Origin: Antedon mediterranea
Taxonomy: Eukaryota > Echinodermata > Crinoidea > Comatulida > Antedonidae
Assembly: GCF_964355755.1 (NCBI RefSeq)
Contig: NC_092677.1
Location: forward strand, 10,004,601-10,068,600
Length of the DNA: 64,000 nt
Direction: 5' to 3'
Below are positions 504-59,100 of this stretch, in pieces (position 1 is the stretch's first letter; every line of letters begins with the position of its first letter). The notes below the pieces were generated by a model, which saw only the letters and a program-made list of their open reading frames with translations, had not been told where the DNA came from and searched no databases. The position numbers and the translations under genes are program-made.

Positions 504-1585
504 CTGGGTAGAAAAATGCCTGGAAAAGCCAATCAAAAGTTAAATACCCGAAATTCATGTAACCATGGAGAAATATAACAAGGAAAACTACAAAGGATTG
601 GAATTCTAATTTGAGATAATATAAACAGCACCATACAATATTATTACTATTAGGAGCATTGTGTGCATGCTTTAAACATTGTGACAAAAGTTCCTGAACA
701 AAAGGACAAAGAATTCTATATGCCAATTTCCGAGAACTAAACAGTACAGTATCAATGACAAACCAAATATAGGCCTACATATTTAGTTAGTCTTTCAACC
801 GGAAACGATTATATGTCAACTGTACTGGTGCATAAAAACTGATAATCAATTTTAAATAGGTTCTTATTAAACAAACAAGATAGTATATGAAAAGAAGCCA
901 GTTGAATATAGGCCTTACAATTTTCATAATCTTGACATCACAGGAACAGTACAAGAGAAATTTTCCACTCCAGTGCACAATGAAGTCATGGCAGTTGATT
1001 TTGAAAACTAGTTTTTAGGGAATTCCCCATAAAGATATTCACACTCTGTTACAAACACCGAATTAAAAGAGTAAAAAACAACTGAATAAAATAAATATTT
1101 TAAAGTAATTTTTTAAAACTAGATCATGAATTTTTATTTTTTACCTCCCTGAATAAATTGTGGTGTTGTGCCGTGTTCTCAGTTCTACAAAAATAGCAGC
1201 CAGCAGTGTAATAAAAGTCTGGTTTTTCTCTGGGCTGAGAAAATCATTAGTTTAGTCGTCCATTTGTTCAAAATTACATTTCTTATAACAATAACATTTC
1301 CCTGATACACAACTTCCAAAAAACGGAACAGTCTTTATTTTCAAGAAGAATGGCAAAAATGAAATATTGAATTTAATTAAACATATGATATTATAATTTC
1401 AGATTCGCTTCTCATATGTTGAAAACAAAATCAACTTTCGTTTATAATTTAACAATAAAACAAAACTCCATATAAATGTTTTGTTTATAAAATATTGCAT
1501 CAAATATAAGATCTATTTTTTGCCAACTCACTATGACCCTTGAACTCTCCAATTATTATTACTGTACTCTTGACCTCTCCAATCA
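504..1585 (-). other. DECR1 3' flank / probable 3' UTR
   Basis: This AT-rich stretch follows the DECR1 stop codon. AATAAA poly(A) signals on the minus strand occur at 1335-1340 and 1133-1138, either of which could end the transcript. A short repeat of the type TGACCTCTCCAAT with an ATTA core recurs at 1540-1605. No other gene is seen apart from the possible upstream exon noted for 369-503. Confidence 0.4.
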
Positions 1586-11370
<9,785 letters not shown>

Positions 11371-13637: not shown

Positions 13638-13645
13638 TTACTACC

Positions 13646-15445
13646 GGTTTACGATGAAATCGGTCGCGTCTGAAATCGGTCGCGTTTGAAATCGGTCGCG
13701 ATAAAATCAACTTCCGGTATTTTGTATGGCGCGCCGCTAGAGCTATACGTTTGAAATCGGTCGCGTTTGAAATCGGTCGCGCTATTTTGTATGGAGCGAG
13801 ATGCATGCTAGCGGGATATACATTTTCTTCGTTTATATAGTTTATTTAATTGATATTTTTTAGGAACTAGATTATTTATGTGGATATTTTTTATTTTGGT
13901 TAATAAATATTTATTATCATTTTTTTTTTATTTCACATGTCTCGGAGAAGAAGGACTGTGTCTTTTCTAAATGGCCATTTCTAAACACATTTAAATATTT
14001 TATTAGGCATATAATAATTTACCTCTATTTTATTATGCACTGTGTAATTAATATATTATATAGAGAATATACGTCTGTGTCTTTTATTAATCAAACAATA
14101 TATAGCCCGTAAAGCCAGCGTATCCATTTTTATACTTATGCATTCTGTGGCAGATATATCATATCCATGTCGTTAAAAACTTACTATTGGATTACCTTAC
14201 CGTATTTTAATTTCTATTTTATTTATGTCCGTACGTTATGTAGGATAATATTAAGTTTAGGCCTATAATGAATATTGTTGAGGCAAATCACGTGTATATT
14301 TTTATTTCTAATGTTTAGGCCTAAAATATTTTCTAGTAAAAATGATTATTATATGCGGATCGTTAAAAGGCGAGTTACTGAAATAAACCCCGAAATAGGC
14401 CATTAATCATATCGTGGATGCGCCTTCTATGATCATGCAGACGTTAACTGCACGTTATTTTGCTGACGGGGATTCCCTTTAAAAAAAAACACGCACTAGT
14501 GTGTCAAATCATGGACAAAACACGTACGGCGATCGTTGTCCATGGACATGTAAAGATGACGTATAATAGGCCTATTACTAATAACCATACGTTTAAAACA
14601 TCTATAGGCCTGCACGTGTTTTGTGAAACCTAGTTCCATGGTGAAATGATGTATATAATTTACGTATATACCTCGGCAATACTATAGTTTTTAATTTGAA
14701 TATCTTTTATTTCTATATATTTTCTATACATTTATAATAATCACTAGGCCTATCATTGTACAGTTTAGATTGATATATAACGGCATATTATTTTATTAGT
14801 ATTATCCTAAAACCATGCTCACGTAAGAGTGGCGGATATCGAACGTAAAAATCATCGTCATACATCATCTTCCTTTATTGCATAAACCTCATTGAGCTGG
14901 TATCCACTTGCAGGTATAGAACTAGTTTCGTAATTAACTGTGATAAAAAAATACGCAATAGGCGCGTCTACTTGTTTAATTCAACATTTTTAAAACTTTA
15001 AACAGTGGCATGCTAATCTTTTCAAAAACTTAAACAATATTCAATAACACTTTTTAAAACGATTTTCTAAACGAACACATTACAATTATTCATTGACACG
15101 GTCTGTAAGATAAAATGAAAACACAAATTATTTATAAATAATGAGATAAATATTTATATTTAAGCCTACTGTACTAAAAAAATAATAACGATCGAGGTAA
15201 ACAAAATGTTAATAGTATTAGTTAGAAATTCTATATTCAAAATTAACTAAAAACATAATTAGCGTTTTCATTAAAAATGTATCGTAGTGCGTCCCATGCA
15301 AAATAGCGCGACCGATTTCAAACGCGACCGATTTCAAACGCGACCGATATCATTAAACGTATAGCTCTAGCGGCGCTCCATACAAAATACCGGAAGTTGA
15401 TTTTATCGCGACCGATTTCAGACGCGACCAATTTCATCTGACACC
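13646..15445. mobile_element. Non-autonomous TIR element with GAAATCGGTCGCG repeats
   Basis: About 150-bp terminal inverted repeats, each carrying five copies of GAAATCGGTCGCG and the segment CGATAAAATCAACTTCCGGT. Ends GGTTTACGATGAAAT and its diverged complement ATTTCATCTGACACC. An 8-bp duplication TTACTACC flanks it (13638-13645, 15446-15453). The 1.8-kb element has no recognisable transposase. Eight-base duplications suggest hAT or a relative, but the termini do not identify a family. Confidence 0.8.
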
Positions 15446-15453
15446 TTACTACC

Positions 15454-18800: not shown

Positions 18801-21800
18801 GTAATGGAAGGGGGACAAAGACTGAATGCAGAAGAGAACCAGGGTAAGTAGGCTACATCTATAAATAAATCATCGCCGATCGATTGTTAAAGCCTACTAG
18901 GGTGTGGCCATGCCTGTCTCCCATAGTGATGATAGCACTGGCCTACCCTATCTAGACTAGCCTAGCTAGGCCTAGACCTACTTTACTTAATTATTAATAA
19001 TAATAAAACCCCAATATTAATATATGACTGTGATTAAAATCGCTTGAAACTTTTCTTTATTTACTACAACTTTAGCCGGCCTCCATCTTTTAATCCCCGA
19101 CATACAGTATATTGTAGCCCCAGACTAGATTGTTCAGTGCCTAAACTAAGCAATATTTAATTTTCATTTCTATAACTACTGATCCTTCTGTAGTGTTGGG
19201 TTAAATACTATAAATAATATTACTAAATAGTTTCGCCTTTTTTCCTTCAGATTTTGACCGTCAAGCTATTGACAATACAACAGGTAATAATGACAACAAT
19301 ATTCATTTGTAGAAACTAAATACAGTAAAATGGCATATTTATTGATTAATATAATTAATGGTGTTAAGTGGTTCTCATCTTTTCTTGTGTTTAAATAATA
19401 TGGTAATGTTGCATTTTATATAGATGACAGTGAATTAGATGGCAGTAATGCAGATGCAGAAAGTGTTGATGAAAGTGTTGATGACAGTATTGAGGATCCA
19501 AGGGAAAATCAAGACCAACCAGTACAAAATGCTGGTGAGTAATAACTATATTCATTATATAATTAATTCTGTATATGAATATTTGTATGTGAAATCACAA
19601 ATAATTACTAAACGTAGTCAATATGCTTGCAATGCAGCATCTGAAGGTAATTTTTTCTTATTACTTTTAGGTGCACAGCCACTAAAAAAAAAACCCAAAA
19701 AAACAAAGCTGGAACAATCGTTTAAGTTGCTGACTGACATGATGTCCAAGCAGGATGAACAACTTGAAAATCGGCTGCTGCGACAAACCGAAGAACAGCA
19801 GCAATGGATGCAGCGGATGGCTGAAGCAGCAGAAAAGAGTAGGAGGGAAGAGCATGCCAGGATGATGGACCTGTTCAAGATGATGGTACAGCAGCCACAT
19901 CAACAGCCACAATATTATCCACACCAACAGCCACAATATACGCAACAAAGAACAGGTCAAGCACAATATACACAGCCACCACCATATCAAGGGTATAGCT
20001 TGCTGGAAAACCGTACACACAATTCACCAAATCCAATCAATACGATGCAAGCAACACCATTCCAACGTTCACAAGCACCTCATACTTTAACTCGCCCACC
20101 TCATAATTTAACTCGCCCACCTCATACTTTAACTCGCCCACCTCATACTTCCACTCGCCCACCAACCGATGAAGACATCCCAACATATTTGTCCATATAA
20201 ATTCATCCAGATCTTTCAAAAATGAATGCAATAGTTATACAGTATCAACAAAATGTTTTTTTCAACATTTACAGGTTTCTCTTTTTTTTTATTTTTTCAT
20301 AAAAATCCCATTCCCTACGTTTTGTAAAAATATTGCATAAATAGTACTGTACTTTTACAACGTTAAACCAGGTCATTCCTATGTACATTTTATGGTAAAT
20401 AATGATAAGAAAGAAACACTGCACTACCTAATGTATGTTTGGGGTTATAGCAGACTTCATAAATTATTAGAATCAACTTATTTTCCACATTTTTAATCAT
20501 TTAAAGACTGAACAGTTATCGCAATATTATTACATTAAATGTAGTTTGTGACCTTAAATTAGGTCTAAAAAAAGTAGGGAACACGAATTTAAACTACTTT
20601 CCAAACTGCAATATTTTACCTCAGTGATTTAACTTATTTTCTCTAGAACAGAACTTTTGTAGGAAAATTGATTGCATGCTTAAATTATTTACCATAATTG
20701 CATTATTAGTTATTAGTTTTAGATGTTTATTTTTAAACAAAATATTTTTACGCCGTATTATTTGTCTTTCAACAAGGTATTTTTCTACATATTTATAGCA
20801 TGTTTATAACATACATAGTGGTGTTGTATAAAAAAAAAATGTTTGCGTCCAGAAAGAAAACACAGTAGATATACAACAGAAATTTAGTAGGAAAAGTGAT
20901 TGCATGCTTAGATTATTTACCGTAATTGCATTATTAGAAACCATGTATATTTTTTTAGATGTTTATTCGTTCATTTTGGAAAAAAGTTATAAATTAACAA
21001 CCAATATTTGTTTTTAACAAAGTATTTTTCTACATAGTTATAGCATGTTTTAAATATAATATATATATAGGTCTAGTGTGTTGTATAAAAAAAACATTCA
21101 GAAAGAAACCTCATTACTTCTAAACTGCAATATAAAACTTGACTGTGTGGTGTAATTTCAAAAAATTACAAAAGAGCTTTACAAATAGTGTTATATTTAT
21201 ACTGTATATGTATTACCTTTATTCTATTTAGAAACTGAATAGTTTAATTTGCAAATAAATCACTTGGAGTAAAGTGATCAGAAATAGTTTTTATATTTGG
21301 TGCAAGTTACAATAGTTTGTTATTGCAGTTCTAATGTCTAACGCATCTGGGGCTGGATTATCAAAAACATTAATATTGTTTGCTTCATCTTCAATGGGAA
21401 AATCAGGCATTGCTTCTTCTATTGCATCATTTTGTTCAATACAAAAGTTGTGCAGTACACAGCAACTGCTCACGATCAAAGGGACTTTTGAAATATGCAT
21501 GTCATTTCGACGCATTAACATCCTCCACCGGCCTTTAAGGATACCAAAGGCACGTTCAACAACCATACGGGCTCTGCTTAGCCTGTAATTGAACACACGT
21601 TGTCTCCTGTTAAAGTTACCACGCTCTGGAAAGGCTTTCATGAGCCATGGCATCAAAGGGTAGGCTGGGTCACCGATAATAAACACCGGCACATCCACAC
21701 CATCAATTTGAAGGGAAGTGTTCTGGAATGAATAAAAATATATAATGGGTTAAATAAATATTAAAAGTCTCAATAAATTTGCTTTTTTAAACCTATTTTA

Positions 21801-24800
21801 TCGTACTTACCCTTGGAAATAACTGTCCCCCCTGACCTCGTTCATATATGGAAGAATTCCTTAGTACCCGGGCATCGTGCACCTTCCCTGGCCACCCTAC
21901 ATTAACATCTGTGAACCTGAAACCAACAAGAGAACGCCTAAATTAAGAATATGGTAGGTATAGAATTAATTTTGAGGATTAGCAAATTAGTATTTGCCAT
22001 TTCTTTAGAACAAACTGATACACTTCTGTTGACTGACAATATGACTTTATTCTATATCTTCCATAGTATAATACAAATTTTGAAAAAGAATATCAGGATA
22101 TCCCATTAAGTTGATACAGTATATAAAATTAAGAGTACCTATTTCCGGTGTTTCAAAAATTTAATTTACAAACTATGCATTTTAATGTATTGAAATATGG
22201 AAAGGGTACCTTAATTTGTTATCCACAACTCCTTGTAGGATCATCGAGTACCAACCCTTGCGGTTGTAGTAGTCGGCAGGTGAAAAGTGTGGTGCTTTTA
22301 TAGGAATATGAGAGCCATCAATTGCTCCAGCACATTGTGGGAATCCAAGTTCATTGAATCCCACAATTGTGGCCCTCAACCTTTCCTCCGTAGGCCAAAC
22401 AATATAGTTGTTATACATTGTGTCTACTAAGGCTTGGCAAACCTCCTGTACAACACGGCACACAGTTGATCTATGCACACCAAACAAATTGCCTATTGTT
22501 CTCAGTTCACAGCAAGTTGCCAGTCTCCATAAGGTCATTCCCACTAACTTTTCAACACTCATGCCATTCCCAAGGTTTGAATCCTCTCGTTGTAGAGTTG
22601 GCCGCAATATATTGCACAGAACTTGAAAAGATTCTGAAACGCATAAGTATTGTCATGTTCAACTCCTTTTTTGTAAGAGCCGGTATTAATTTATAATTAA
22701 TGTTATTTATTAGTTTTGGTAAGCCTGCCCGGCCGTGGTGGTGGTAGACTGAAAATAGACCAAATATAAATCGAGATGGATTTATAGCCTAGCTAGGCTC
22801 TACTTACTTAGTCCGGTCATACCTACAATTGTAATGCTGGCTATATAAACAAAAGAAAAGTTGGCCTAGGGGAGGCTAGTTTTTAAAAACTTACCTTATC
22901 AACACTACTAGACTTCCTAGACTAGTACTAGTACTTACTACTTACTAGGCCTAGCTAGGCTAGGCCTCTTTAGTATTTTAGTATTTATTTAGTATTTAGG
23001 TTTTTTTATTAAATTACTACAGCTGTATTATATTCATATTTAATACCTTGGGACATTCTGAAGTTTTCTTTCCATAGCTGTTCTGTGTAACGTTGGCACA
23101 CCGTTACATCCCACCAGTCCAGGCTAACAATGTTTTGCCTTGGCCTTACTACTCTCCTCTGCCTGTCCTCGTCGTTGTCGGTAGATGTACCAAGAAGTAC
23201 TGCGGCAGCGAAAATAGTCCTCCTTCTTGCTCGCCTACGTGCCCTTATTATATTCCACACAACATCATTATTCCGCTGTATTTGCTGGTAGATGTTTAGT
23301 GGGTTGACACGCAGTTCTTGATTAAAAGCCCAGAAAAGGGATATCAGTAATATAGCATTACGAAAAAGGTCCATTTTAAACACATGTGCGAAAGAGACAG
23401 CAAGCGCAGGGCGATGTAAACAAAACAACTCAGGTCAACCAAAAACTTCCGGAATTTGAATTGCGTTGTGGGTAATGATGACGTGATTTTAAAAACCGAT
23501 TACCCGAATAACCGATTAAAGTAGTAGCAATTTTCAATTGCAACGCGATTATTTTTGTGGTTTGCGGTGACTGGAAAAAATCGATTATTTTGATTTTTTC
23601 AGCAGAAACAGACCCTAAAAGGCGCCAAGTTTCGGAACATTGCCAAATTTATTTATACTGGGACAACATAGCTGAACCTAAAATAATCCTTTATTGTTTT
23701 GATTGATGCCTTTAAGTTATAAACACAACATTTCAGAGAACTGGTATGAGGAAATAAATGGATTAAATTACAACTTAAACAAAAAAATTACATTTTTAGA
23801 TCAATAGCGTAATGTCACACACAATTTTGTCTTTGTTACTTAAATTATTTTTGTGTTATTATTTCTTTATTTAAAAGCTTCATAAACAATTTAGATATAG
23901 GATGTGATGCTTTTTTTTAGTTGAAAAATATTGATGATATACATATTAGGTATGCCATTGATTTTTATTTATTTGTAGGCCTATTGCTTTCCAAATATGG
24001 AGTAGTCTGTCATACCAACACAGTACAGAACTTCTACATTATATGGAGTAGTCTGTCATACCAACACAGTACAGAACTTCTACATTATATGGAGTAGTCT
24101 GTCATACCAACACAGTACAGAACTTCTACATTATACCGAAACAATAATATTGTATAATATATATTTTTAGCTTTAGTTTTTAAACAAAAATACTGTACAG
24201 AGATATTCTTTATAATTCAGCATTTTATCTCCGCCTTTGTTAAAATATATATTCTATTTCTGATATTTGAACCAGACCTAGATTTAAGTACTCTATTGTA
24301 AAAGAAAACAGACAATTTTTTAAACCACAGGTGTAAATAAACAATCCATTTTCCTGTACAAGTTTATAAAGTAATAACGTATGTGAAAGTAAATAATTGT
24401 CTGATAAATGAGTAGGAGGCTAATAGATGGTCACACCCAAATTCTGTGATACATTTAATCTTTCGTGTTCACATACTGTACATGTGCGCAACATGTGGGT
24501 GGGTCTGATGTATTCATAACGCTATACTATACTATTCATTTCCGTGTGAACATGGCTTGCATTACAAGATGCTTTTGGGAAGTTTGGAATAAAATAAGAC
24601 TCAGAATACTGCAGAATACAGTGTTAAGCTCTGTCTACACTATCAAATCAATGTGCCCATATATGGACATGATAATGTCATATCACTATTTTGGCATATC
24701 ACTGCCATATTTTGGCACATCACACTTTTGATAGTGTAGACAGGGCTTAAGACCTCCGTTGGGAATCCTCTATTAAAGGGGACACTTCTTTCCTGTGAAG

Positions 24801-41186: not shown

Positions 41187-44100
41187 ATGTCTGATGTAAG
41201 TTTTAATCTGTTATTACTAACATTTCAGTCTTGTATAGCATTTTCTAAGATTATATTACCGTACTTGCATTTTATGTATGTTTTTCTGTAAATAGGCTGG
41301 CCCGGCAGCCACAAGATTTCTATTTTCTTGGGCACTGCCTACTTCCTTTTATTGATAACTTTATACTTTGTAATCATAATATTAATCATTCTTGACTCGT
41401 TATATATTTTACTTGAATTTATTACGTTTACCTCATTTTCTTGAAGGAAGAAATGCAAGTTGAATTTGAAAGATGCTCGGCTACCAATCCCAGGGTCCTT
41501 GGTTCGAATCTGTCTTTCTCATGACAGAAGAACTCCTCTCCCAAAGATTTGTAATAAAGACTTGGTTTGTGTAGAGCATCTTGTGGATATGTTAGTCTGT
41601 GATTATTTAAGGGGGAGGCCGCCGGTTATTAGCCACTAGCCTTAAATAGTACATATGGCCTCTCCAGGAGACTTGTCTCCAAACACTAATAAAATAAACG
41701 TCACGTCCACGATTGTGATATTTATTCCTATTTTTTTTTACAAATAGGTATACTGTATACCAACATAAAAAGCATGACTATTGATTTTAAGTAAAAAACC
41801 GATATATTGGTGAATTCACAAAGCTTGTTAAAGATTTACCGTCTCCCTGAACAAAAATGTTTTACATTTTTGTTGTTGAATATGCAATTTTTAAATCACA
41901 TAATTTGTATTCACTTTGACCAAAAATAAATATTTTCCTGAAAAAACCCCTGTAATTCAAAGTATGTAAAACATAGTCAAAGTTACTGGAAGTCAATGAG
42001 TTTTTGTTTGAATTGTTACCGTTCAGTAGGTGAAAACATCTATGGAAGTGATTAATTTCAAAATAGCCTTTTCAAAGTCTTTTTCATAATCTTCATTATT
42101 CTTGTTTTTGGTGGACAATACATCTTTAAAACCATGAGATATCTGTATCTTCTATATATGGGATGAAATATTAAACAGCTTGCCCTCTGTCAATTTATTT
42201 ATTTTTCTCCAAAAGTCTATGGAGGAACAGATACAGATACAGATTAATTTATTGTCCAAAAAATTAATGGAAATTACAGTGCTCATAAATGACCTTGGCT
42301 TGCCTAAAAAAATAACTATAAATATAAGGGGGACTATCTAACAAATGTTTTGTTATAATGCCTTATGTTTTCTTAGCTCATGATTATGTTTGTTTATACA
42401 TACTTGTACTTTCAGAAAGAAGGAGAAAATAATATATTACAATCAGGTAATAGTGGTCAGGTTGGGCCAAGAACTGTAAAGAGCAGCAATAACTTACCAC
42501 CAAGTAAGTCTGACCGTTAAAACACATGATTATCTTTTCAACATTTCTCATGGATTTTCTCCTTTTTTAAACAATATGTATTGAAGGTTTGCATGGCGAC
42601 TCGCTATAATGTTGATATAGTTTGCGTTACATGGTATATTTAGTTCTGAAAAGGATGGGGTGCCTTCCTTGTTGTGAATATTGAAGAAAGTCTGTGTAGG
42701 TATAGCTTTATAAAACGAATCAATTCTAGCAATAATGTCTTAATTATGTAACCCAGGTTTAGTCTCCCTCAATCAATACTTATCTTTTAAATAAACAAAT
42801 ATCTTGGAGACAAACTAATCAACGTACATCAAAAACAATCTAAATTCGGAAAAGCTATTTATTGAATAATAGTAAGTATAAATGAATGTTTGGTCACTAT
42901 AAAAGACCACAAACAATAAAACAAAACTTAAATTAATAATCAAGATTTACATCGAACTAAAACCGGTATTGAACTTAGAAACCCCCAAGGCGCCGTTTAA
43001 ATATTTTAAAGTTTACAGTACTTGGTTTTAAGCAAAAATTTGCACCATCGCTTCCAACGCTGTCCTCTTCTAAACCGTCTATGATTTTCCGATGTCCAGT
43101 GTTTCCACGCCTGCAGTTGAATTTTCTTATTATCTTCAGTAAGATTCTAGTTTTTCCAACTAAAATAGAGAGCAACATATAATATGTACAATATGGTAAG
43201 CGTTTGCTATACCTTAAACAGACTTAAACACTGTATGCTCAGCACTAATAGAGTAGTACAGTACAATCAAATTACATACCGTATTCATTTCTTACAAAAT
43301 GGGTTAACCTAATTATCTCGATTGCATCCGTGCAATACTGTAGCTACAAATCATGGAAACTTCCAGTGCTTAATAAAATAACATTAACAATAAGAGGTAA
43401 TAATAAAACTAAACTACAACAGTAAAAGTATAAATCTTTCTAACATTATACTATTCATTCATAGGGTCATTTATCTTCTATTTGCTAATTAATCTCCTCT
43501 TGCTTGATTGCATTCAAGCAACAATACTACCATTGTAATAGCACGATGGAAAATTAAAAGATAAACTAAATCACACTGTACAGTCTAAATACTAAAACAA
43601 TGCAATACAAAACTTAATTTAAAGGTATTAGATCAGGCATCAAGTCTGCCCAAAATAATGATAAAAGTATACATATCACTCACCTAAAATAGAGAGCCAA
43701 TATCCTCATTGTGTAATAAAAATAACTTCAAAACTTTAAGTGTACAAACTGTACAACGTGTAAATATCACAGTCTTCTTTAACACGAATTGTACTTTAAA
43801 CTTAGTACTCTTTTAGTATACCGTATATAATAATATATATATATCTTTCAGTACTTTCAAATAGGTTCTCGAACTCAACGTTGTTCGAAATGTAAAAATA
43901 TATAATTGAAATGTAATTAAAGTTGGAGTGTCCAGCACGTCCGATGGCAAGAGGCAAAGAGAAAGAAATCTCCCAAAACATACCCTAATATTATCCAAAG
44001 TTATCAAACAAGGTACCCCTATTGGTCCATTCTTGTTACTAGGCAAAATTCAAGAGGGGTAAATTGACTGATTGGTCAATTCTCAAATTTAGGACCTCCC

Positions 44101-47100
44101 ATTTAAATAGATAAACATGTGAGAGGATTAAAACAGAACAAAGAGAGTTTTTAAAAGGATTAATTAACAAAATGATTAAAACATATACAGTTCCAAGAAA
44201 AAGCAACATAATGCAAACATCTTAATGCAGACATTGATAAACAATCTTGCCCACCCACTGCACCCAGCTGCATTACATTGTAGGTACAGTGGAAAATGAT
44301 AATAAGTAAAGGAAAAGAAAACATATCTAAAACATGACAGGGTTACAATTAGAACAATCAATATCATTATAGAGTCAACATTGTACCTAAGCCCGTGTTT
44401 CCACAGCCAAAACAAAATAATATCAGTTAATTTTTATTCAATACATGCGCATGATCAGTCATTACCAAACAACCAGATGCCCAATCACAACGCAACAATT
44501 TTTCCTTCAGATCACAGGTTAAAAATGTACACATTCATCCGATAATCATCCGATTTGAATGAGATAATTACTGTATTGGTTAATTTTTCTCGAATGGATT
44601 TGGTTAAACCCCGTTTCCACAGGCAGCTAGTTTATCGGTTAATTTGACTGCAGAAACATGTCCATAGATGTTGTAAAAGCATTACATTTATACCTCTCAG
44701 CGCCAGTGCGCCCTCATTGGCTGGAGTTGTTCGTGCGTTGTTGCTTTGATTTCCATGTTGTTGTATTGAGTTATTGACTGTTATTAAAATACATTATTCG
44801 CATTACATCGGTCTATGTGTGATCTGTAGAGTTGTGGCATATAAAAATCAACCTTATTGGCGTGGTGGCAGCCCAAGATATTCGGACCTTCCGCTTAAAA
44901 CCAGTGAGTTATTAGTTGTTGAACTTAGGCCTAGCCTAGGCCCATCCATACCATTATCTACGAGATCGCACTAACGCACAGAGGCGTACGACCAGCCAGC
45001 ACATATAGCTGGTAGGATGGCGAACGTTAACAGAGCTCCTAAACAGTGGAGCTTAACCAAAACTGAAACAATAAACTCATTTGAGTCATGGCGGCAGAAC
45101 ATTATTTATACACTTTCGTTGGATGAAAATTTTGCTCCATTCTTGATGGAAGGCACACAATGGGGCCCCAAAACCAGAGCATCTCCACTCCGCCTATTTG
45201 AGGACGATGATGACACTGTCCCTAGAGCACGTCGACGTACTGCTCAGCAAAAGGTACACATGCTCGAGCTCATGCTAGGCCAGATCGCAAACTTCTGTCC
45301 TATTATTTCTCGAAGCACAATTGTTAAAAGCTCCACGTCCATCTCGCAAATCTGGCAGGCCATCCGACTTCACTATGGTTTCCAAACGACCGGAGGTCAC
45401 TTCTTAGACTTTGCCACTATTCACCTCGAGGCTGGTGAACGTCCAGAAGATTTGTATCAACGACTATTGGCATTTGCTGACGATAATTTGCTACGCACTG
45501 GAGGCGGAATTAATCATCACGGCGTCGCGATCACAGAGGATGAAGAAATGACACCTACTGTGGAGAACTTTATTGTGTTAACCTGGTTATCCCTTATCCA
45601 TAAAGACCTCCCGCGTCTAGTCAAGCAACGATATGGAACTGATCTGCGAGATCGTACCCTGGCGACAATAAAGCCCGAAATTTCGCAAGCGATGGATTCC
45701 CTTTTCGATGAATTGCGTGCTACAGAAGACACACGCGCAATGCATACTTTCGCAACACCTCCCACGGTCAACTATCAACACGCTTCTCGCACGTCTCGTA
45801 ATACTACTAGTCATATTCGTCGACAGCTAAAGTCTTGTCCTCTTTGCAAACAGGCTGGTCGAAAGCATGACACCCACTTTCTCAGTGGATGCATTCACTT
45901 ACCTGAACAGGACCGGAAGTACATGGTCAGGGCTAGACAGGTCATCGGAATCATTGAAGGTATCGAGGAGACTGACGTTAGCGATGACGCCAGTTTAGCA
46001 GATAACCAGACAGAACAGGCTGCACTACGCGTGCAGATCAGACAGTCGCCCTATCTCGACGTTTTCCACAATCACCACACGGCACGTATTACTATCGACA
46101 GTGGTGCCACCGGCAATATGATCTCCCTTGCCGCAGCGACAGCCCTATCGGCCGAAATTAGAGAATCATCTCAATCAGCCCACCAAGCAGATGGCTCATC
46201 TCCATTAAAGGTTGTCGGCGAGACAACAATTACATTTTCCCGCAACCATATTGAACTTCTCTTTGACGGCCTCGTAGTCGAACGACTCGATGTGGATATT
46301 CTGGCAGGCACACCCTTTATGGAAAACAATGACATCGCCATTCGTCCAGCGACCTGAAGATGCGGGTATTCAAGTAGAATATTTAAACCCATCATTCTTA
46401 GTAAAGAAAGACAGCGGAGGATTCCGCCTTGTAACCGCCTTTGCGGATGTCGGTCGATACGCGAAACCTCAGCCTTCACTAATGCCCGACGTAAACTCTG
46501 TACTTCGTCATATCGCTAGGTGGAAGTACATTATCTCTACAGACCTCACTAAGGCATTTTATCAGATACCGCTTTCACGCGAATCGATGAAGTACTGCGG
46601 AGTGGCCACGCCCTTCAGAGGAATCCGTGTATACGCCAGGTCTGCTATGGGAATGCCGGGATCTGAAACAGCGCTGGAGGAACTAACCTGCCGCGTCTTA
46701 GGAGAGCTTCTCTCTGAAGGCGTCATTGCCAAGATTGCAGACGATCTCTACTGCGGAGGAGACACCCTAGATGAGTTACTTTGCAACTGGCGCCGACTGC
46801 TGTCCGAACTTTATAGATGCGGCCTCAGTCTCTCAGCAAGTAAAACATTTATCTGCCCAAAAACTACCAAATACTCGGGTGGACATGGTCCCTTGGCACG
46901 TTAAGAGCCAATCCACATCGTATTTCGACGCTCGCTACGTGTTCTCCCCCTAAGACTGTAAAGGGCCTCCGATCGTTCATTGGGGCGTATAAAGTGCTCG
47001 CACGGGTTATCCCCAACTGCGCTTCCATCCTCACACCTTTAGACGATGCTGTGGCTGGCCGACAGTCCCAAGACAAAATCACGTGGTGTGATGCCCTTTG

Positions 47101-50100
47101 TGAAGATTTTTAGACTGCTCAAAAGTTGCTCACAACCAGCCAAACAATCACGTTACCCCATCCAGATGACCAGCTTTGGATAGTCACTGATGGTTCAGTA
47201 AAAAGACACGGAATTGGGGCAACACTATACATTAGGCGAGACGATAGTCTGCGGATCTCCGGATTCTTTAGTGCCAAACTTAGAGCTCGACAGCTTACGT
47301 GGCTCCCGTGTGAGATCGAAGCCCTGGCAATCGCTGTCGCAGTTACCGTATTTTCCGGAGTATAGGTCGAGACTTTGTGGGAAAATTTTAATTGCAAAAT
47401 CGGGGGTCGACTTATACTCCGACCATGCGATTTTTGAAAAAAATCAAGCCGAAAAAATTCGTTCAAAAGCCGTCAGCTGTCAAGGCCTAGCAAGGTCAGT
47501 GGCCTATCATCAATCACTCACAGGAGTTTTCAATTTAATAATACCTACATTGTACAAAATAATACAACTCCAACAAGTACTGGTACAAGTACTATTAATA
47601 TATAACAAAGATTAATTTTGATGTTTATATTACGCTTTTATTAAAATAATTAAGAATAAATAGTTTTCGTTTGTGTTTCATATGCTTCGTATTCACTCGC
47701 GAAAACATCGTAACACACACCACAAAACGAACTACACGATGTGGAAGGATCTAAATCTCCCTACTCCAATCCAGGAGATCTTCTACGCATGTGTAGATAT
47801 TTACTACGTCATCATATATGTATCGTATTTTACTTGCGGTCCGGCCATGCAGTATTTACTCACACGTCGCTTATTTTATACCGTATTACAGTACTTAAAT
47901 ATAATGTATATCGCTTTCCCAGACATCCCACAGCTATATAGGTTAATATACATGGAATTAAAGTGTAGGCCTACCAAACATTTTTGAAAAAGATATTTAT
48001 ATTAGATATCATAATCGGGTTATGTTTATGCTGTAGGAAAAAGGAGAATCAACGTAAACGAATACTTAATCTATGCCTACTATGATTCCGGTAAATCCAC
48101 TGTACATAGCCGTATACCTGCCCTGACGTATGACAAATAAGACATTTATTATTTGTCATCCTTCAGGGCAGGTATTGTATGATTCCACTGTACATAGCCG
48201 TATACCTGCCCTGACGTATGACAAATAAGACATTTATTATTTTTCATCCTTCAGGACAGGTATTGTATGATTCCACTGTACATAGTCGTAGGCCTATACC
48301 TGCCCTGACGTATGACAAATAAGATATTTATTATTTGTCATCCTTCAGGGCAGGTATTGTATGATTCCACTGTACATAGCCGTATACCTGCCCTGACGTC
48401 TGACAAATAAGACATTTATTATTTGTCATCCTTCAGGGCATGTATTGTATGATTCCACTGTACATAGCCGTATACCTGCCCTGACGTATGACAAATAAGA
48501 CATTTATTATTTGTCATCCTTCAGGGCAGGTATTGTATGATTCCACTGTACATAGCCGTATACCTGCCCTGACGTATGACAAATAAAACATTTATTATTT
48601 GTCATCCTTCAGGGCAGGTATTGTATGGTTCCACTGTACATAGCCGTTTCCTACAGGCCCACACAATGCACACCTGGTTGGTGAAAAAAAAAGTAATGTT
48701 TTTTCAATACTATTATGCCTCAAAATACATAGGCCTAATATAGACATTGTAGGCCTACAATGGAATTGTATATTGAACGTGAATGAAGTAAAAAGTGAAA
48801 CAAATTGCAATCTGGTACTTTCCCCGCTGTTTGTAAATATGAGGCCTGCTGCAGTAAAGCATTCGTACGTATTTATATATATATTTTTCCAGTACCATAG
48901 ACTGTTTGTCTATATATATATATTAATGGCAATCTTGTATTGACTATACTATGTAGGCACTATAGATTAGTAAAAACGTAAGTTTTACGACGATTTGATT
49001 CAAATATATTGGATCATTAAAAAGAAATTCTTATTTTTCAACATTAGATTGAATATTTTTACTTTCTTTTATTTACAGTTTTGTATTTTAAAAATAAAAT
49101 GTATGTAATAATACATTCATTTAGAACATCACATTTTCTGTTTGGCTGATTCTTCATTTAGGTAGGCCTACATGGTATTAGACCGGGCGCCCGGAAGATT
49201 TATTCATGTGAAAAGATACAAAAGGTTTGATGATGTAGTAAGGTGCGTATTATGGCGAGATGCAATATTCGACATTGCTGCCGGGTCACAGCCTGTACAT
49301 TGGGCCTGTGGGGATCATAACATAGGGGGGTAAAAATGCATTTATTCATGTGAAGCAATACAAGGATAAACTTTGTTGGATATCATTCGTAGTGGGCTAC
49401 TAATGATTACATCACCAATGACAGCAACTTTATCCTGTACGGGGCGCCAAACAGCAACATTTTAGGGCCACGCCCAAATGGGTTTATTCATGTGAAGCGA
49501 TACAAGGTTGAATCTTTTTTTAATGGCAGCAGTACATATTGGGGATGACAAAAACACCAATGACAGCAACTTTATCCTGTACATAAGCTCAGACAGCAGC
49601 CCTAAAGGTCCGCAGTTTCCCCCTATTCGGCTATATACTCGGCGCGTCGTCCTATGGCGTTCAGCTGAGTTAGAAATACGTACTCGGACTGACAATAAAT
49701 ACACAGTAGAATGCTAAAACAATAAATAAAGAGAGCAGTTGTTTCCTGTACCAAATCATCAAACATCAAACTCTTAGGAACTCGCCCAAAATGGGTTTAT
49801 CCATGAAGTATGTAATCATTTTTGAAAAAAAATGGTTTTTTTTCTTCACTTTATTCGGTACCGTACCCAACAGCTCATATACCCGAGGCTCCATTCGTGA
49901 TCAACAATGTTGATAATACAAACACATTCACGATAACGAGTGACTTTTATTTTATAATTGAAATAATATATCTTTATTTTAGAATAATAAATAAAACACT
50001 TAAAATAACCAACAGCAGATTTGTATTTTAGGGTAACATTTTGAACAATCAATATTATATCAAAATCATTATTTCGATCAAAATAATATAATTTAAGAAT

Positions 50101-53100
50101 ATTTTTCAGATAAACTAAATAATTACACTCATAGTGATCGACACCGGTACCGATTATTGTACATAATTATTATAACTCGATTTAAATATTGTTTTAATTA
50201 CACACGAGACACTAGTGATGTATATATGAAAAAAGGCAACAAAATCTAAATTTGCAACATTTTTTAACATAACATAACATAACATAATAGTAAAGTAAAT
50301 AATAGTTCGAATTCAACATAATCACTTAGAGAATTGGTAAGGTATAGATTAGACTATCGATATCTTATTTGTCATACGTCAGGGCAGGTATACGACTATG
50401 TACAGTGGAATCATACAATCAACCTGCCCTGAAGGATGACAAATAATAAATATCTTATTTGTCATACGTCAGGGCAGGTATACGACTATGTACAGTGGAA
50501 TCATACAATACCTGCCCTGAAGGATGACAAATAATCAATATCTTATTTGTCATACGTCAGGGCAGGTATACGACTATGTACAGTGGAATCATACAATACC
50601 TGCCCTGAAGGATGACAAATAATAAATATCTTATTTGTCATACGTCAGGGCAGGTATACGACTATGTACAGTGGAATCATATACAATACCTGCCCTGAAG
50701 GATGACAAATAATAAATGTCTTATTTGTCATACGTCAGGGCAGGTATACGACTATGTACAGTGGAATCATACAATACCTGCCCTGAAGGATGACAAATAA
50801 TAAATGTCTTATTTGTCATACGTCAGGGCAGGTATACGGCTATGTACAGTGGAATCATACAATACCTGCCCTGAAGGCTGACAAATAATAAATGTCTTAT
50901 TTGTCATACGTCAGGGCAGGTATACGACTATGTACAGTGGAATCATACAATACCTGCCCTGAAGGATGACAAATAATAAATGTCTTATTTGTCATACGTC
51001 AGGGCAGGTATACGGCTATGTACAGTGGAATCATACAATACCTGTCCTGAAGGATGACAAATAATAAATGTCTTATTTGTCATACGTCAGGGCAGGTATA
51101 CGACTATGTACAGTGGAACAATACCATACCTGCCCTGAAGGATGACAAATAATCAATATCTTATTTGTCATACGTCAGGGCAGGTATACGGCTATGTACA
51201 GTGGAATCATACAATACCTGCCCTGAAGGATGACAAATAATAAATGTCTTATTTGTCATACGTCAGGGCAGTTATACGGCTATGTACAGTGGAATCATAC
51301 AATACCTGCCCTGAAGGATGACAAATAATAAATATCTTATTTGTCATACGTCAGGGCAGGTATACGACTATGTACAGTGGAATCATATACAATACCTGCC
51401 CTGAAGGATGACAAATAATAAATGTCTTATTTGTCATACGTCAGGGCAGGTATACGACTATGTACAGTGGAATCATACGTACCTGCCCTGAAGGATGACA
51501 AATAATAAATGTCTTATTTGTCATACGTCAGGGCAGGTATACGGCTATGTACAGTGGAATCATACAATACCTGCCCTGAAGGCTGACAAATAATAAATGT
51601 CTTATTTGTCATACGTCAGGGCAGGTATACGACTATGTACAGTGGAATCATACAATAACCTGCCCTGAAGGATGACAAATAATAAATGTCTTATTTGTCA
51701 TACGTCAGGGCAGGTATACGGCTATGTACAGTGGAATCATACAATACCTGTCCTGAAGGATGACAAATATTAAATGTCTTATTTGTCATACGTCAGGGCA
51801 GGTATACGACTATGTACAGTGGAACCATACCATACCTGCCCTGAAGGATGACAAATAATCAATATATTATTTGTCATTACTCCATGGTACAGTGGAATCA
51901 TACAATCCTGCCCTGAAGGATGACAAATAATAAAATAATGTTGTCTTATTTGTCATACGTCAGGGCAGGTATACGGCTATGTACAGTGGAATCATACAAT
52001 ACCTGCCCTGAAGGATGACAAATAATAAATGTCATGTAATTTCATAATTTCATGTGTATTAGCCTATATAGCTGAGGAGGATGGTCTGGGAAAGCGATAT
52101 ACATTTAAGTAATACGGTAGAAAATAGCGAAGTACGAGTAAAATACTACATGGCCGGACCGCAAGTAAAATACGATATATATATGATGACGTACTAGATA
52201 TCTACACATGCGTAGAAGAACTCCTGGATTGGAGTAGGGAGATTTAGATCCTTCCCACGATGTTGGAATGTCCATGCAGCATGTTTGTTATTGCGCGATA
52301 TTTTCATCTATACACATGCGCAGTTTGTTTGTTTGTTCGTAATTACAATTACTGCGCATGTCTATTCATAAAATAAATTCTCCTCAGTCCGGCGCGTGTA
52401 CATTTACAGATAACGCGATTTACAACTACTCGCCTGTACAATTTAATAAGCCTCCTAACGAAAAACTCGTTTTAATTTATTCGAGTGACGCGAAAAAACA
52501 TCGCTGATGGCAAGTACTGTAACGCTACATCGCTGTCATTTATTATAGGCTGGCGAAGACGGCGGCGAAGCCGTTGTGATTACGTCCGTCCGATATTGAT
52601 TAGGCCTACACTTTAATAATTGTATAAACAAACAACCACATTTCATACATTTCTAGCCTTCTTTGAACTTTAAAGTAAGTTGTGTTATTAGCCGATTTTG
52701 GAGGTCGACTTATATTCAGGTCATACCAAAATCAACGATATTCGGCGCTAGTTCCGTTTCGCACCTGTCGTTTATTTCGACTCAAAATTGGTTAAGTAAC
52801 TTTATCGTGAGTACCACACCTTAGAATTAGGCCTCAAAAATATTTTTACAAAGGAGATCACACAAAAAGTAAAAAATAAATCCTTTAAATTGATGAATTT
52901 ACAGACGTGTTTCTCGCACATCGGTTCGTGAATTTCGCATACTCAATGTTCAATGTTGTTGTTTCTATGGAGCGCCAAAAGAGCAATCATAATAGAGGGC
53001 TAAAAACTCAATAAATTGCGTATATTTAATGCATTTATTGGTGAAAATTACGTTCAATTTTATCATATTCTGTCAATGTCAATGCAACAAAAATATTACT

Positions 53101-56100
53101 GTTGATACTGTACATGGTTTTTGCAGGAACTTTTAGGAATGAAAATCGACAAATTCATCATCATATTACATGTACTGTAGGGGTATACCTGATCTAAATA
53201 ATATTCCTCTTAGTCTTACTATAGTCTTAGGTCTAGGGTTGGTTGCTATTTGAAAACAGCAAATTATTAGCAGTAAAATGTTACAGCATTTTTATTGACA
53301 AAATATATTAAAATTAAACGTGTATTTCAATAATAAATGCATTAAAAGAAGACGCATTCCACTGAGTTTTTAACCATCTATTGTTGTTTGCTCTTTTGGC
53401 GCTCCATAGAAACGAAAATATTGAACTTCGAGTATGCTAAATTCGCGAACGGTATGCGAGAAACATGTCTGTAAAATCATCAATATAAGGATTTATTAGT
53501 TAGTTTTTATGTGATTCTTCTTCATAAAAGTACTTATGAGGCCCAATTTTAAGGTGTGGTATTCACAATAAGTTGCTTAACAATTTGGAGTCAAAAGGAA
53601 GTCGAAATAAAAACAGGTGCGAAACGGAACTAGCGCCCGATATTCTAGGTCAAAGTTGGGGGTCGACTTATACTTGGGGTCGACCTATACTCCGGAAAAT
53701 ACGGTAAGCATTTTAGTCCATATAGTCCAGTCCCTAAGGGGAGAAAAAGGGGTGGGATGTTACCAGACTGGATACAAATTTTTCAATATAGCAGTTTGGT
53801 AGAGTATAGTGTGGAGATGCCAAAACAAAGTTACTGGAAATCTGATTTGACCTCTGTGACCTCTGACCTCAATTTTTATATTTTTCTATTATATAACTAA
53901 AAATCGCCATACCTTGACAACGCATGGACATTTTACATTAATTTTTTTTTCAAAATGCTTGGAAGATATATATTTATATTCGCTATAATGAAAAAAATTG
54001 TACAAAAATGGCCGCAAAGGCTTTATTTTTCAGTTTGACCTTTGACCTTGATTGCCTAATATCTCAATAACACGCAATTTCAGAGATTTGAGAATGGGCC
54101 CAAAATGTTAAGAAAATAAATCTAATATTTAGTCTAATAGAAACTTTTTTCAAAAAATTACCATAAATTAAGCTTTCTTGACCCTTGACCTAAAATGTTT
54201 GAATATGTCAATATCTCGGTAACTATTTTTCCTAAAAAGTTCAGTTTGGTGTCAAATTGTTTAGAATATACACATTTATATTTGCTCTAACAAAATATTT
54301 TGTCAGAATTCAATTGGAAATGTCATTTTGAGCTATGACCCATCCGTTTTGCATATATTTAGCAATTAATAATCTATAAAAAGAGATCGAGAGAGGGGAG
54401 GGGGTTGGGGTGGATGGAGAGACACATTTTTTTTACATGTTACACAAATGTTAAACTCTGTCTGCACTATAACATTTTTATGCGACACAAAAATGTGATG
54501 TGCCCATATATGGACACGATGAATGACATATCACTACCATATTTGGGCACATCACACCTTTTTTGTTAAACTAGTTTATAGTGTAGACAAACATGTAAAA
54601 AATATGTGTCTCTCCATCATCCCAACCACCTCCCCCTCTCTCGCTTTTCCAATGCTACTGCATGCATCTATACACATCAAAATGGCCGGAATTGTACTGG
54701 AAAGTTTTTAGCTACATTTGAAAATAAGTCCCAGAGGATGGGTGTATTGTAATGTTATCAGAATTATGGCAATTGTTTGTAATGGGAAAGTTTTAAAACT
54801 ACATTTGAAATATTTGCTTATAATATCACATGCTATTAAAGATATACTTATTTTCCCCCTGACAAAAGCATTTGACAAATATTTTTGTTGAATATGCAAT
54901 TTTAATGTCACACATAATAGTTTCACCAAAAATTGGATTGAAAAAAATGATATAGTGCATACCCAAAAAAACTGTAATTCAAAGCAAAAAATAGGCTGGA
55001 AGTCAATGTGATTTTGGTTAAATTAACTGTTTATTGTGTCTTTAAAGTGATATTTACTCTATTTTTTAGATTAGCTCTTTGATTAAACACCTCTTCCAAT
55101 GCAGTGAAGATCTTAAGTGTCGCCTTGTCTTACTAATCTTCCTTAACTTCTCTTTGAACGATCGTAATCAATATTTGTTGAGGTATAATATTTCCCTCAA
55201 ATGCTTTCTGATAATCTCTAAATCAAAGATTTGGTGATATTCATTTTCTTTTTATTTTAGTTGATTGACAAACTGTATAAGATGGTCCTACAAAGCCATA
55301 TATATTGGTTTATTTACTTCTAGTTGGTCTCTGATTTTGTTTTTTGATTACTTTTGTAAATTATTTGTGTACATGTGATAATGTTCGTTTGGTCGGTAAT
55401 GGTTGATGTCAGTTTTGTCATGTTTTTGTTGATTAAAGTATAATTATCATTGCTTCTCTTCATTTCTTCTGGTTTCAAAGATGTTGTTGTATAGTGTTAT
55501 GAGCTGGATGTGTTATTGCCTGATCAAGCCAAGATGGTAATTTTGACTGCTCACTGGTTTGATTTCCTTTTATATTCCACTAAAGTATGTTCTTGAAAAG
55601 AAATCAGCTTTGTAATTAATTTGTCTTTGATCCTTTTCAGATTTCTAATATTTTAAACATATGTTTTTCTTTTCTTCGCTTTTTCCTCACTGTTTCAAAC
55701 ATTTTATTTTTTCAGCATACTTCACGCAATGAATTGATAATTAGGTCATATGTTTTATGAGTATCAAATCGCATTGGTTAATTCTTCTTTTCTTTCTTTA
55801 AGATCTTGATTTTCTTTTTTTTTTTAATGTTATTTAACTTTAAGTTTATCTAATTTTTTGTTGATATTAAGTGTTGCTCTTACGGTGTAGGCCTACCATG
55901 CGATGGAATTTTATATATTGAAATTAAATTAAACATAAAGTTTTAAGAAAATTGTAAAAGGCTAAATAGGATATTGAAGGTAGTTCTGGTCCATTAAATC
56001 TATATTTTAGGTATATTATTATAAGTATGACACACGCACGCTTTACAGTATATCCTGGTTATACCTCAAACTGGCATTTCCAGTAAAAATATGATAACAT

Positions 56101-59100
56101 CTTCTATTAGAGCTAATATAAATTCTGAACATTTTGACACCAAGTTGAACTTTTTATGACATTTGGTTACAGAGATACAGACATATTTAAACATTAAAGG
56201 TCAAAGGTCAGTAAATGACATTTCCTGTGAATTAGGAAGAACATGTTTAATTAGAGTATATATAAATATGTATGCTCTTAACAATTTGAAACAAATTTCA
56301 AGAAATTTTGACCAGTAGTTATTGAGATATAGTAAGCCGAGGTCAAAGGTCAAAACATTGAGAAATTACATTTCCGGTTGTTTTTTTTGAAAAAAGTTCT
56401 ATTAGAGCGAATATAAATATGTACCCTCTGATCTATTTGACACCAATATTATTTCAATTGTCAAACCCGTTGCGGAGATATAGATGTTTAAGATAGAAAT
56501 ATAAAAATTGAGGTCAGAGGTCACAGAGGTCAAATCAGATTTCCAGTAACTTTGTTTTGGTATCTCCATATCATGTTCTATCAACATGCCAAAGGGCACA
56601 CGTGTATCCACTATGGTAACATCATTTCCCCTTAGGGACCGGACTAATATGTTGTTCAATCTACTAAACGAGCTTGTGTTTTAACTGACAGTAAACCGTG
56701 CGTGCAGGCTTTTGGAAAGCTTTGTCGGGGTGAATTTTCCGTGAGCCCCAGAGTATCAACTTTCCTGTCCTCTGCTAGCCGATACCAGGTTTCCGTTCGA
56801 CACCTAGCTGGTTCCGCGAATGTTCCCTCAGACTTTGCAAGCCGCAATGCTCCTGAATGCATTGATGCCAATTGCCAGGTATGTTCCTTTGTTCAGCGCT
56901 CTGAGGAATCAGTTGTACTCAGAATCGCTTCACACGATTTCATCACAGGTCAATCCAAGTTGCCCTTCACAAGTAGTATAGGTCCGCATGGCTTTCACTA
57001 CAATCTGAATGCCCTGATTTACGTAGGGTACACGCCCACTTAATCCAAGGTACGCGTCCTTCTAAAAAGGTTACCGATAAGAGAGATGTCAAACGCTACC
57101 TCGCTGTCGCATCACTTAGCAAAGACAACCTTCTCGTGTCTCTCGTTCATGAGCCACTTGCTCCTCCACGAGAAAGAATTATTGTTCCACGCCCGTTTTT
57201 GCATGGCCTGCTTACTGCCATACACATCCGATTAGACCACCCGACTTGTCACCAACTCAAACAAATGGCACATCGATATTTTTATGCCCTCGACATGGAT
57301 AAATCGATCGAAGTCACCACCTCATCTTGCCACCAATGCGCCACCCTTCGCCGAATTCCTAAGGCCTCTATCGATCAGTCGGCTGGCGACCCACCGGAAA
57401 CTGTGGGTGTTACGTTCGCTGCAGATGTCATGAAGCGCAATCGTCAATTCATTCTGATTGTGAGAGAAGCGGTAACGTCATTCACAGTCGCTTGTTTTCT
57501 TGACAACGAACAGCGTAACTCACTTCGTGACGCTCTTATCCGAATGTGCGTTGAGCTCCGTCCCCTTGATGGTCCCCACGCCATTATCCGTGCCGACGGG
57601 GCACCCGGATTCCAAGCACTTGTTAATGACTCATTACTCAAGCAGGAACGCATCTGTATTGAAATAGGCCGACTTAAAAATGTTAATAAAAATCCAATTG
57701 CCGAGAAGGCTATTCAAGAACTGGAAGATGAACTACTTCGTTTGGATCCTGACGCTGGTTTTATCTCGCCTATTGCACTCGCTCGTGCAACCGCACAACT
57801 CAACTCACGCATTCGCTCCCGTGGTTTATCCGCTCGTGAGATGTGGACCAAGCGTGACCAGTTTTTCCACGAACAGATCCCACTCTCTGACCTCAAGCTT
57901 ATCCGCGAACAGCACTCATCACGCACCTCTAATCACAAATACAGTCGAATTTCAAAAGCTCCCACTCGTGAACTTGCTCCTGCAACTCTTGTGGAGGTGG
58001 GTGATCTCGTATACCTGTATGCAGATCTTAACAGTCTAACGCTCGTAAGAGATACCTTGTCGTATCTGTTGATGGTACATGGTGTTGCGTTCGCAAGTTC
58101 AGTGGAACCCAGTTACGAAACACATCGTACCGTGTTAAGCGATCCGAATGCTTTAAAGTTCCTAGCTCTATACTTGCTCCTAGTACACTTACCTCACGAA
58201 AGTACCAGAGTGAGGGATCGGACAATGAGGATAATACATTTGGACCTACCGTGGTTGCCCCAGTTCAGCCTGTCATTCCTGTTGAGATATCTTCTCCGCT
58301 TGTCGACGGTGCCACAAACACCGTCCTTGAAGATGTTCATGATAATGATCCGCCCTACAACCAGATTCGCGATGAACCAACTTCCCAGTCTTGTTCAAGA
58401 CCTCAACGCTCTCACCACCTACCAAACCGATTTGCTGAATTTATTATGGACTAGTGGTTTTACGATCTTGCACGTTATTTTATTTTTTAACAAGTTTCAC
58501 TCTGAATAACATTTTATTTTTTGCTTTGATTTTGTGATGCCGGTTACCATATGTTTTGCTTTTCTCCTGTATTGCTTTAAAGGATATTGTTTTAGATTAA
58601 AACTGATTAAGAAAGAAGAAGAAAGAAAAGTAGTCACGCCAGTGCGCCCTCATGGGCTGGAGTTGTTCGTGCGTTGTTGCTTTGATTTCCATGTTGTTGT
58701 ATTGAGTTATTGACTGTTATTAAAATACATTATTCGCAATACATCGGTCTATGTGTGATCTGTAGAGTTGTGGCATATAAACATCAACCTTATTGGCGCA
58801 GAATATAGTTATTTGTTTATCCACCTCAACCCCCTCCCCTACCATGAATGACCTCCCCTACCATGAATGAATAATCCAATTAGAAATGTAATTCAATTAA
58901 TGTTCAACGATAACTAGACTCAATACTGTAATTTTTGTTTTGAATTTTAATCATTTTTAACCGTTAAACAATAAGAATATACAGACATGTTTAGCATTAT
59001 TATAAGAGTCAAAAGTGTATCATAAATAGAGTAAAAAAAAATCATTATATATATTTTGAAATATTCTGAAAAATATTAATATTGCCTTCATTTTTCCTGT

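Follow-up and report, generated by a model that had tools for sequence, protein, structure and literature searches.

The closest described counterparts of the locus reported here are two Drosophila transposons that carry tandem-repeat domains within long terminal inverted repeats (TIRs). In Tetris of Drosophila virilis, the long TIR is built of three domains (a flanking one, one of tandem repeats whose number varies, and an inner one), together with a non-coding middle, no transposase found, 8- to 10-bp target duplications and satellite-like array growth (PMC4079207). Galileo, a Drosophila member of the P superfamily, is described as having long TIRs with internal tandem repeats, which in Galileo F copies are unequal between the ends, and as including chimeric copies whose TIRs derive from two subfamilies (PMC3573991). 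The Tetris paper also cites a sea urchin element and Drosophila melanogaster ones as fold-back elements (PMC4079207), and growth of short internal transposon arrays is listed as a source of satellites in a review (PMC12628747). Here we describe a locus of the crinoid Antedon mediterranea, contained in a 64,000-nucleotide stretch of contig NC_092677.1 (positions 10,004,601 to 10,068,600; the window). Its 6.36-kb section at 47346..53704, which an initial annotation had taken for a single DNA element, is interpreted with high confidence as a set of stacked insertions, an outer 936-bp element with two further elements, A and B, inside. Element A is a non-autonomous fold-back transposon consisting of an arm of ~215 bp, an array, a gene-free-looking middle and the inverted array and arm, and is a new fold-back family of the kind already known from Tetris and Galileo. 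The parts of the nest, in window coordinates, are listed below.

47344..47345, no strand: TA target duplication of the outer element, left copy
47346..53704: outer element, whole (genome place C8:10051946-10058304)
47346..47742, plus strand: outer element, left part, with the 24-bp TIR CCGTATTTTCCGGAGTATAGGTCG at 47346-47369; takes in the left CACGATGT
47735..47742, no strand: CACGATGT, target duplication of element A, left copy
47743..52255, plus strand: element A, fold-back transposon with both hairpin arrays, 4513 bp
47743..47960, plus strand: left arm of element A, alpha type, 218 bp
48093..48649, minus strand: left array of element A, 88-bp hairpin unit, 5 full and 2 partial units
48650..49178, plus strand: middle region of element A
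49179..50361, plus strand: truncated terminal repeat of the long-TIR family X, within element A
50363..52031, plus strand: right array of element A, 18 full and 1 partial units
52045..52255, minus strand: right arm of element A, beta type, 211 bp
52256..52263, no strand: CACGATGT, target duplication of element A, right copy
52264..52743, plus strand: outer element, middle-right part; takes in the left CGATATTC
52736..52743, no strand: CGATATTC, target duplication of element B, left copy
52744..53637, plus strand: element B, fold-back transposon, 894 bp, ends GGCGCTAGTTCCG, arms ~80% identical with gaps
53638..53645, no strand: CGATATTC, target duplication of element B, right copy
53646..53704, plus strand: outer element, right end, with the 24-bp TIR at 53681-53704
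53705..53706, no strand: TA target duplication of the outer element, right copy

The outer element is a non-autonomous TA-type DNA transposon, a miniature inverted-repeat transposable element (MITE), with a short TIR, a TA duplication, small size and many copies. The initial annotation had proposed exact 20-bp ends and a TA duplication around a transposon with no visible transposase, and for this TA-flanked element all of that is upheld. With as many as 3 mismatches allowed, the end CCGTATTTTCCGGAGTATAG occurs at exactly two places in the window, 47346 and 53704, in inverted orientation, compared with a mean of 0.00 in 100 shuffles; the perfect inverted match extends to 24 bp, or 26 bp counting the TA, which lies on both flanks. 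The element sits in the pol region of a long terminal repeat (LTR)-type retroelement, with Pfam matches to RVT_1 and Integrase_H2C2 flanking it, one per side, and an RNase H part named by eye. When one TA is kept and a neighboring insertion, C, is also removed, a continuous reading frame runs into the downstream pol open reading frame (ORF); without the removal of C this test does not decide, since an open frame continues for some distance in both cases. The retroelement, which hosts the whole nest, spans 44701-58798 and has 162-bp direct repeats starting at 44701 and 58637, with 3 differences between them.

A search of the genome (354 Mb in 18 contigs) for the TA joined to the 19 terminal bases of the outer element, with 1 mismatch allowed, gives 139 places, and a reversed-pattern control gives 0. 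The two ends recur together, as a hand count among 100 listed of the 139 places gives at least 35 convergent pairs within 1.3 kb, plus 2 longer ones, the window copy being one. Four pairs were picked by spacing and then fetched; they measure 936, 936, 935 and 936 bp, are flanked by TA and lack A and B. The window copy is likewise 936 bp once A, B and one duplication of each are subtracted, and this trimmed sequence was the reference for alignment. Two of the intact copies are identical to it at 934 of 935 positions (2 gap columns each), the third at 926 of 931 (9 gap columns) and the more diverged fourth at 859 of 914 (44 gap columns). Three of the four have a single CACGATGT and a single CGATATTC at the respective sites, and the fourth has one slightly altered version of each. 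As these intact copies carry the targets once and lack both inserts, they represent empty sites for A and for B. These comparisons show that the 936-bp TA-type element entered the pol region of the retroelement and that A (4513 bp) and B (894 bp), in either order, later entered the outer element.

Element A, with ends GGAAGGATCTAAATC, has boundaries of its own. Its arms stop at 47743 and 52255, and the same 8 bases, CACGATGT, lie just outside both; the chance of an exact 8-base match at random pairs of window positions is 0.00006, or 0.00028 when a 2-base slide is allowed. The 220-bp inner arms of the initial annotation are a real inverted pair, 87.4% identical, which belongs to A and its 8-bp duplication and not to the outer element. 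With the left arm as query, 41 matches were obtained in the genome, and 16 places were fetched. Twelve arm pairs, including that of the window, were scored for target duplications; of 13 rows, L034 was dropped as its arms face the same direction, and L023, L033, L035 and L036, with a single arm in the fetched stretch, fall outside the count. Duplications of 8 to 10 bp, mostly 9, flank 10 of the 12 pairs, and 9 of these 10 are 9 or 10 bp long. Over all 4513 bp, the window copy shows 0 mismatches to a copy on contig C4, which is flanked by a different, 9-bp duplication, AAAGAAAAT. This identity means that the arrays travelled with A and that their inequality is older than the later of the two insertions. 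The proposal that the arrays expanded after insertion at this site is therefore not supported; the right array grew at some earlier time. Two identical 4.5-kb copies also indicate that the family moved recently. Element A would move as a single unit through a cut-and-paste mechanism, using a transposase encoded by another element.

Between the arrays, the region 48650..49178 matches solely A copies (full in the window, C4, C3 and C1; interrupted in C6), whereas 49179-50361 matches family X elsewhere, mostly at 91-94% identity, both among the best 40 of 199 candidates. The two X copies fetched (L046 and L047) have ~1.7-kb terminal repeats with tandem repeats of their own, and no target duplication was recognized in them. 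These tandem repeats are spaced at 142 bp in the outer part and ~150 bp inside, and family X has many matches in the genome. The middle region of A lists 16 ORFs of at least 45 amino acids, with further ORFs in the arms; 11 element A ORFs (3 within or overlapping A and 8 others) were compared with Pfam, without a match. A Helitron or Helentron with a satellite-like core was considered for A and rejected, since such elements have neither TIRs nor target duplications, and A has inverted ends and target duplications.

Element B has at least 35 other copies in the genome, matching end to end from 1 to 894 (36 with the window copy, among the best 40 of 1286 candidates), and 8-bp duplications flank all five B copies inspected, that of the window included. 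One of these five B copies is seen inside an array unit of another A copy, at C1:19000491-19001379 (L026+L027, 9641-10529), with the duplication GGATGACA recognized by eye.

The array unit is an 88-bp near-palindrome that folds into a long hairpin, for which reason the units also match the reverse strand weakly. A profile scan resolves the left array into 5 full units plus 2 partial ones, and the right array into 18 full units plus 1 partial one; Tandem Repeats Finder gives 6.2 copies on the left and 17.1 plus an irregular tail on the right. The opposed sets of ~6 and ~19 copies reported in the initial annotation are therefore real in number and orientation, but are not part of the outer element. 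No match between the unit and either arm was found at E up to 1, and elsewhere the unit yielded only 10- to 11-base matches. An RNA-derived origin of the unit was rejected, as no tRNA was predicted in 47000-54200 and a scan of 44000-58600 against Rfam gave nothing at gathering scores.

Units of the right array that are eight apart differ on average at 1.60 positions, against 3.00-3.80 for the 13 other offsets tested. This is explained by the copying of an eight-unit block, as the block at 50629-51334 is repeated from 51335, the later part of the second block being partly degraded. Comparison of the first six units of both blocks gives 3 substitutions in 529, with 2 gap columns. Unit numbers also vary widely among copies: counting partial units, the main left and right runs contain 7 and 19 units in the window, 7 and 35 in C1b, 20 and 14 in C1a, 5 and 7 in C3b, 9 and 17 in C4b, and 1 and 2 in C11. 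In three of these copies other than the window one (L029, L031 and L032) the left and right arrays stand almost back to back, without the middle region. Array size would change through unequal exchange or slippage; the eight-unit duplication is seen directly, and the mechanism is our interpretation of it. One further place, L036 (C3:26644287-26653200), contains ~7.7 kb of the 88-bp unit at 650-8354, in runs of alternating orientation and with one arm in the fetched stretch, and is read as the beginning of a satellite.

The arms of the window copy differ from each other at 18 of 207 aligned positions. Within five other A copies the arms differ at 0-6 positions in ~200 bases, and in copy C3a at 22 of 192. 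The two window arrays, in contrast to the arms, have no fixed difference (0 of 88 versus 18 of 207; Fisher p 0.0023). They share three polymorphic columns, the third of which appears as a gap in the array comparison and is a G/A change in the final position of the unit, and a permutation test of differentiation gives p 0.12. A phylogenetic tree was generated from 22 arms, leaving out the interrupted far arm of C6, the left arm of the C1 copy near 19.0 Mb, the far C5 arm, and the arms of L018 (identical to those of the window), L036 and L037. In this tree the window left arm clusters with arms of C6, C5, C8, C3a and C6b (support 0.994), while the window right arm forms a clade with both arms of C1b (0.885). 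Both arms of one copy are mutually closest in C1a (0.985), C11 (0.865) and C3b (0.035). Two arm subfamilies explain the contrast between arms and arrays in the window copy. The window lineage appears to be hetero-armed (alpha plus beta), most simply a chimera of two subfamilies, and the arrays probably act as exchange tracts for arm swapping between elements, the exchange being placed within the arrays by interpretation. Beyond this, we tentatively consider the arrays to be the working part of the element, through which subfamilies swap ends and one-armed arrays grow into an alternating-orientation satellite such as L036, a proposal to which we give somewhat less than an even chance. If true, one repeat unit would feed transposon evolution and satellite birth alike. 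The family makes it possible to follow the growth of arrays, a probable exchange of ends between subfamilies and the onset of a satellite within a single genome, as described for Tetris and Galileo in Drosophila.

Several other explanations of the locus deserve weighing. A single TA-flanked transposon with inner arms and expanded terminal arrays would account for the outer ends, the TA and the inverted order of parts, all of which are real, but it retains almost no probability: the four intact outer copies, of 935-936 bp, have no arms, arrays or B, and the empty sites already refute it. Moreover, A and B are both found elsewhere with their own duplications. Direct empty-site evidence thus overturns the one-element reading and the placement of the arrays as subterminal parts of the TA element; the individual features described in the initial annotation stand, arranged as a nest in which B, at 52744-53637, had been missed. 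It is also very improbable that A is an immobile satellite array trapped between inverted sequences by rearrangement. The 7.7-kb alternating array of L036, with its one arm in the fetched stretch, speaks for such an origin, but identical 4513-bp copies lie at two sites with different target duplications, 8- to 10-bp duplications accompany 10 of the 12 arm pairs, and an empty site exists for the window copy.

For A as a mobile fold-back element, a Mutator-type transposase is the most likely source of movement, to judge from the length of the duplications, 9 of the 10 duplicated pairs agreeing with the ~9 bp of Mutator elements. Mobilization by a P- or hAT-type transposase instead is less likely, though still with an appreciable probability. 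These families make 8-bp duplications, and the window copy has one of 8 bp; Galileo, of the P family, combines long TIRs with tandem repeats (PMC3573991). Against this stand the 9- or 10-bp duplications at 9 of the 10 duplicated A pairs. A different question is whether the two arrays are kept alike by gene conversion between the arms of one element and not by swapping between elements. The lack of a fixed array difference beside 18 of 207 in the arms, the three shared columns and the permutation p of 0.12 are all compatible with conversion, yet we find it doubtful: the arm difference follows subfamily, the right arm falling with the arms of C1b and the left in a separate clade, and the window units resemble units from several other copies about as closely as they resemble one another. 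Given the arm tree, subfamily swapping appears more likely than gene conversion of the arrays.

A number of results weigh against the account favored here, of a Mutator-type fold-back element with swapped ends. No duplication is visible in 2 of the 12 A pairs (C5 and C1 near 19.0 Mb), and that of the window copy is 8 bp where 9 is usual. PF10551, the domain of Mutator transposases, has 36 matches in the genome, and the A end occurs at 37 places with up to 2 mismatches, some of them by chance, as a control pattern gives 7; none of the 36 domain matches lies within 200 kb of the 37 places, the nearest being ~208 kb away by eye. Nor was a match to the A arm found in eight loci of Mutator-like elements (MULEs) searched over ~1.5 kb on each side. 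No transposase for A was found among 10 ORFs tested with Pfam from those listed for five long A copies: four, from L021 and L024, encode reverse transcriptases that belong to other elements, and six have no match at E 0.001, which leaves room for a divergent transposase. In the tree, the C4b arms are not sisters and the support for C3b is just 0.035. Finally, the shared array variants fit arm swapping but do not locate the place of exchange.

Compared with described systems, A has inverted arms at both ends, array numbers that vary between ends and between copies, and 8- to 10-bp duplications (10 of 12 pairs), as fold-back elements with tandem-repeat TIRs do. The statement in the initial annotation that no described family has this layout does not hold, as tandem-repeat domains in long TIRs are described for Tetris and Galileo (PMC4079207, PMC3573991). 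The likeness to Tetris, which is one of description, lies in domain order, duplications, variable repeat number, a non-coding middle, the failure to find a transposase, and satellite growth. According to the same source, the Tetris unit is ~220 bp and shares a 37-bp stretch with the arm, whereas the hairpin unit of A is 88 bp and has no similarity found to its arm; also unlike Tetris as described there, the window A copy has arms of two subfamilies (PMC4079207). With Galileo, A has in common the tandem repeats in long TIRs, the unequal ends and the chimeric copies, but the Galileo text gives 7-bp duplications and a known transposase in place of the 8-10 bp of A, and its chimeric copies lack matching duplications, while the hetero-armed window copy has one (PMC3573991). 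By description, A further resembles TU of sea urchin and FB of Drosophila melanogaster in being a fold-back element. The sea urchin fold-back elements go by the name TU, and TU and FB carry short simple repeats. The outer element resembles Tc1/mariner-like or pogo-like TA-type MITEs in its 936 bp, short perfect TIR, TA duplication and many copies, although the TA would be the sole basis for assigning a superfamily.

A literature search for a TIR transposon with a palindromic tandem unit of 88 bp found no paper that combined all of its terms, and a literature text search found none containing the four end strings. The outer motif, array unit, A end and B end have 0 matches in viral contigs. The 19-base outer-end pattern matches one viral contig over 25 bases at 92%, with no second end, which we take as chance, and in a collection of genome contigs the outer end has 0 matches.

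The neighboring insertion C (53723-56646) lies in the same gene as the outer element, 18 bp to its right. It is a long-TIR element with ends TAGTCC(A/G)GTCCCTAAGGGG, arms ~70% identical and ATA flanks. Elsewhere in the window, ORFs on the minus strand at 21291-22652 match DDE_Tnp_4 and, below the cutoff, HTH_Tnp_4, and may belong to a Harbinger-type transposase. Another long-TIR element is possibly present at 13638-15453, where an inverted pair (13671-13781 and 15323-15436) is accompanied by the 8-bp direct repeat TTACTACC at 13638 and 15446.

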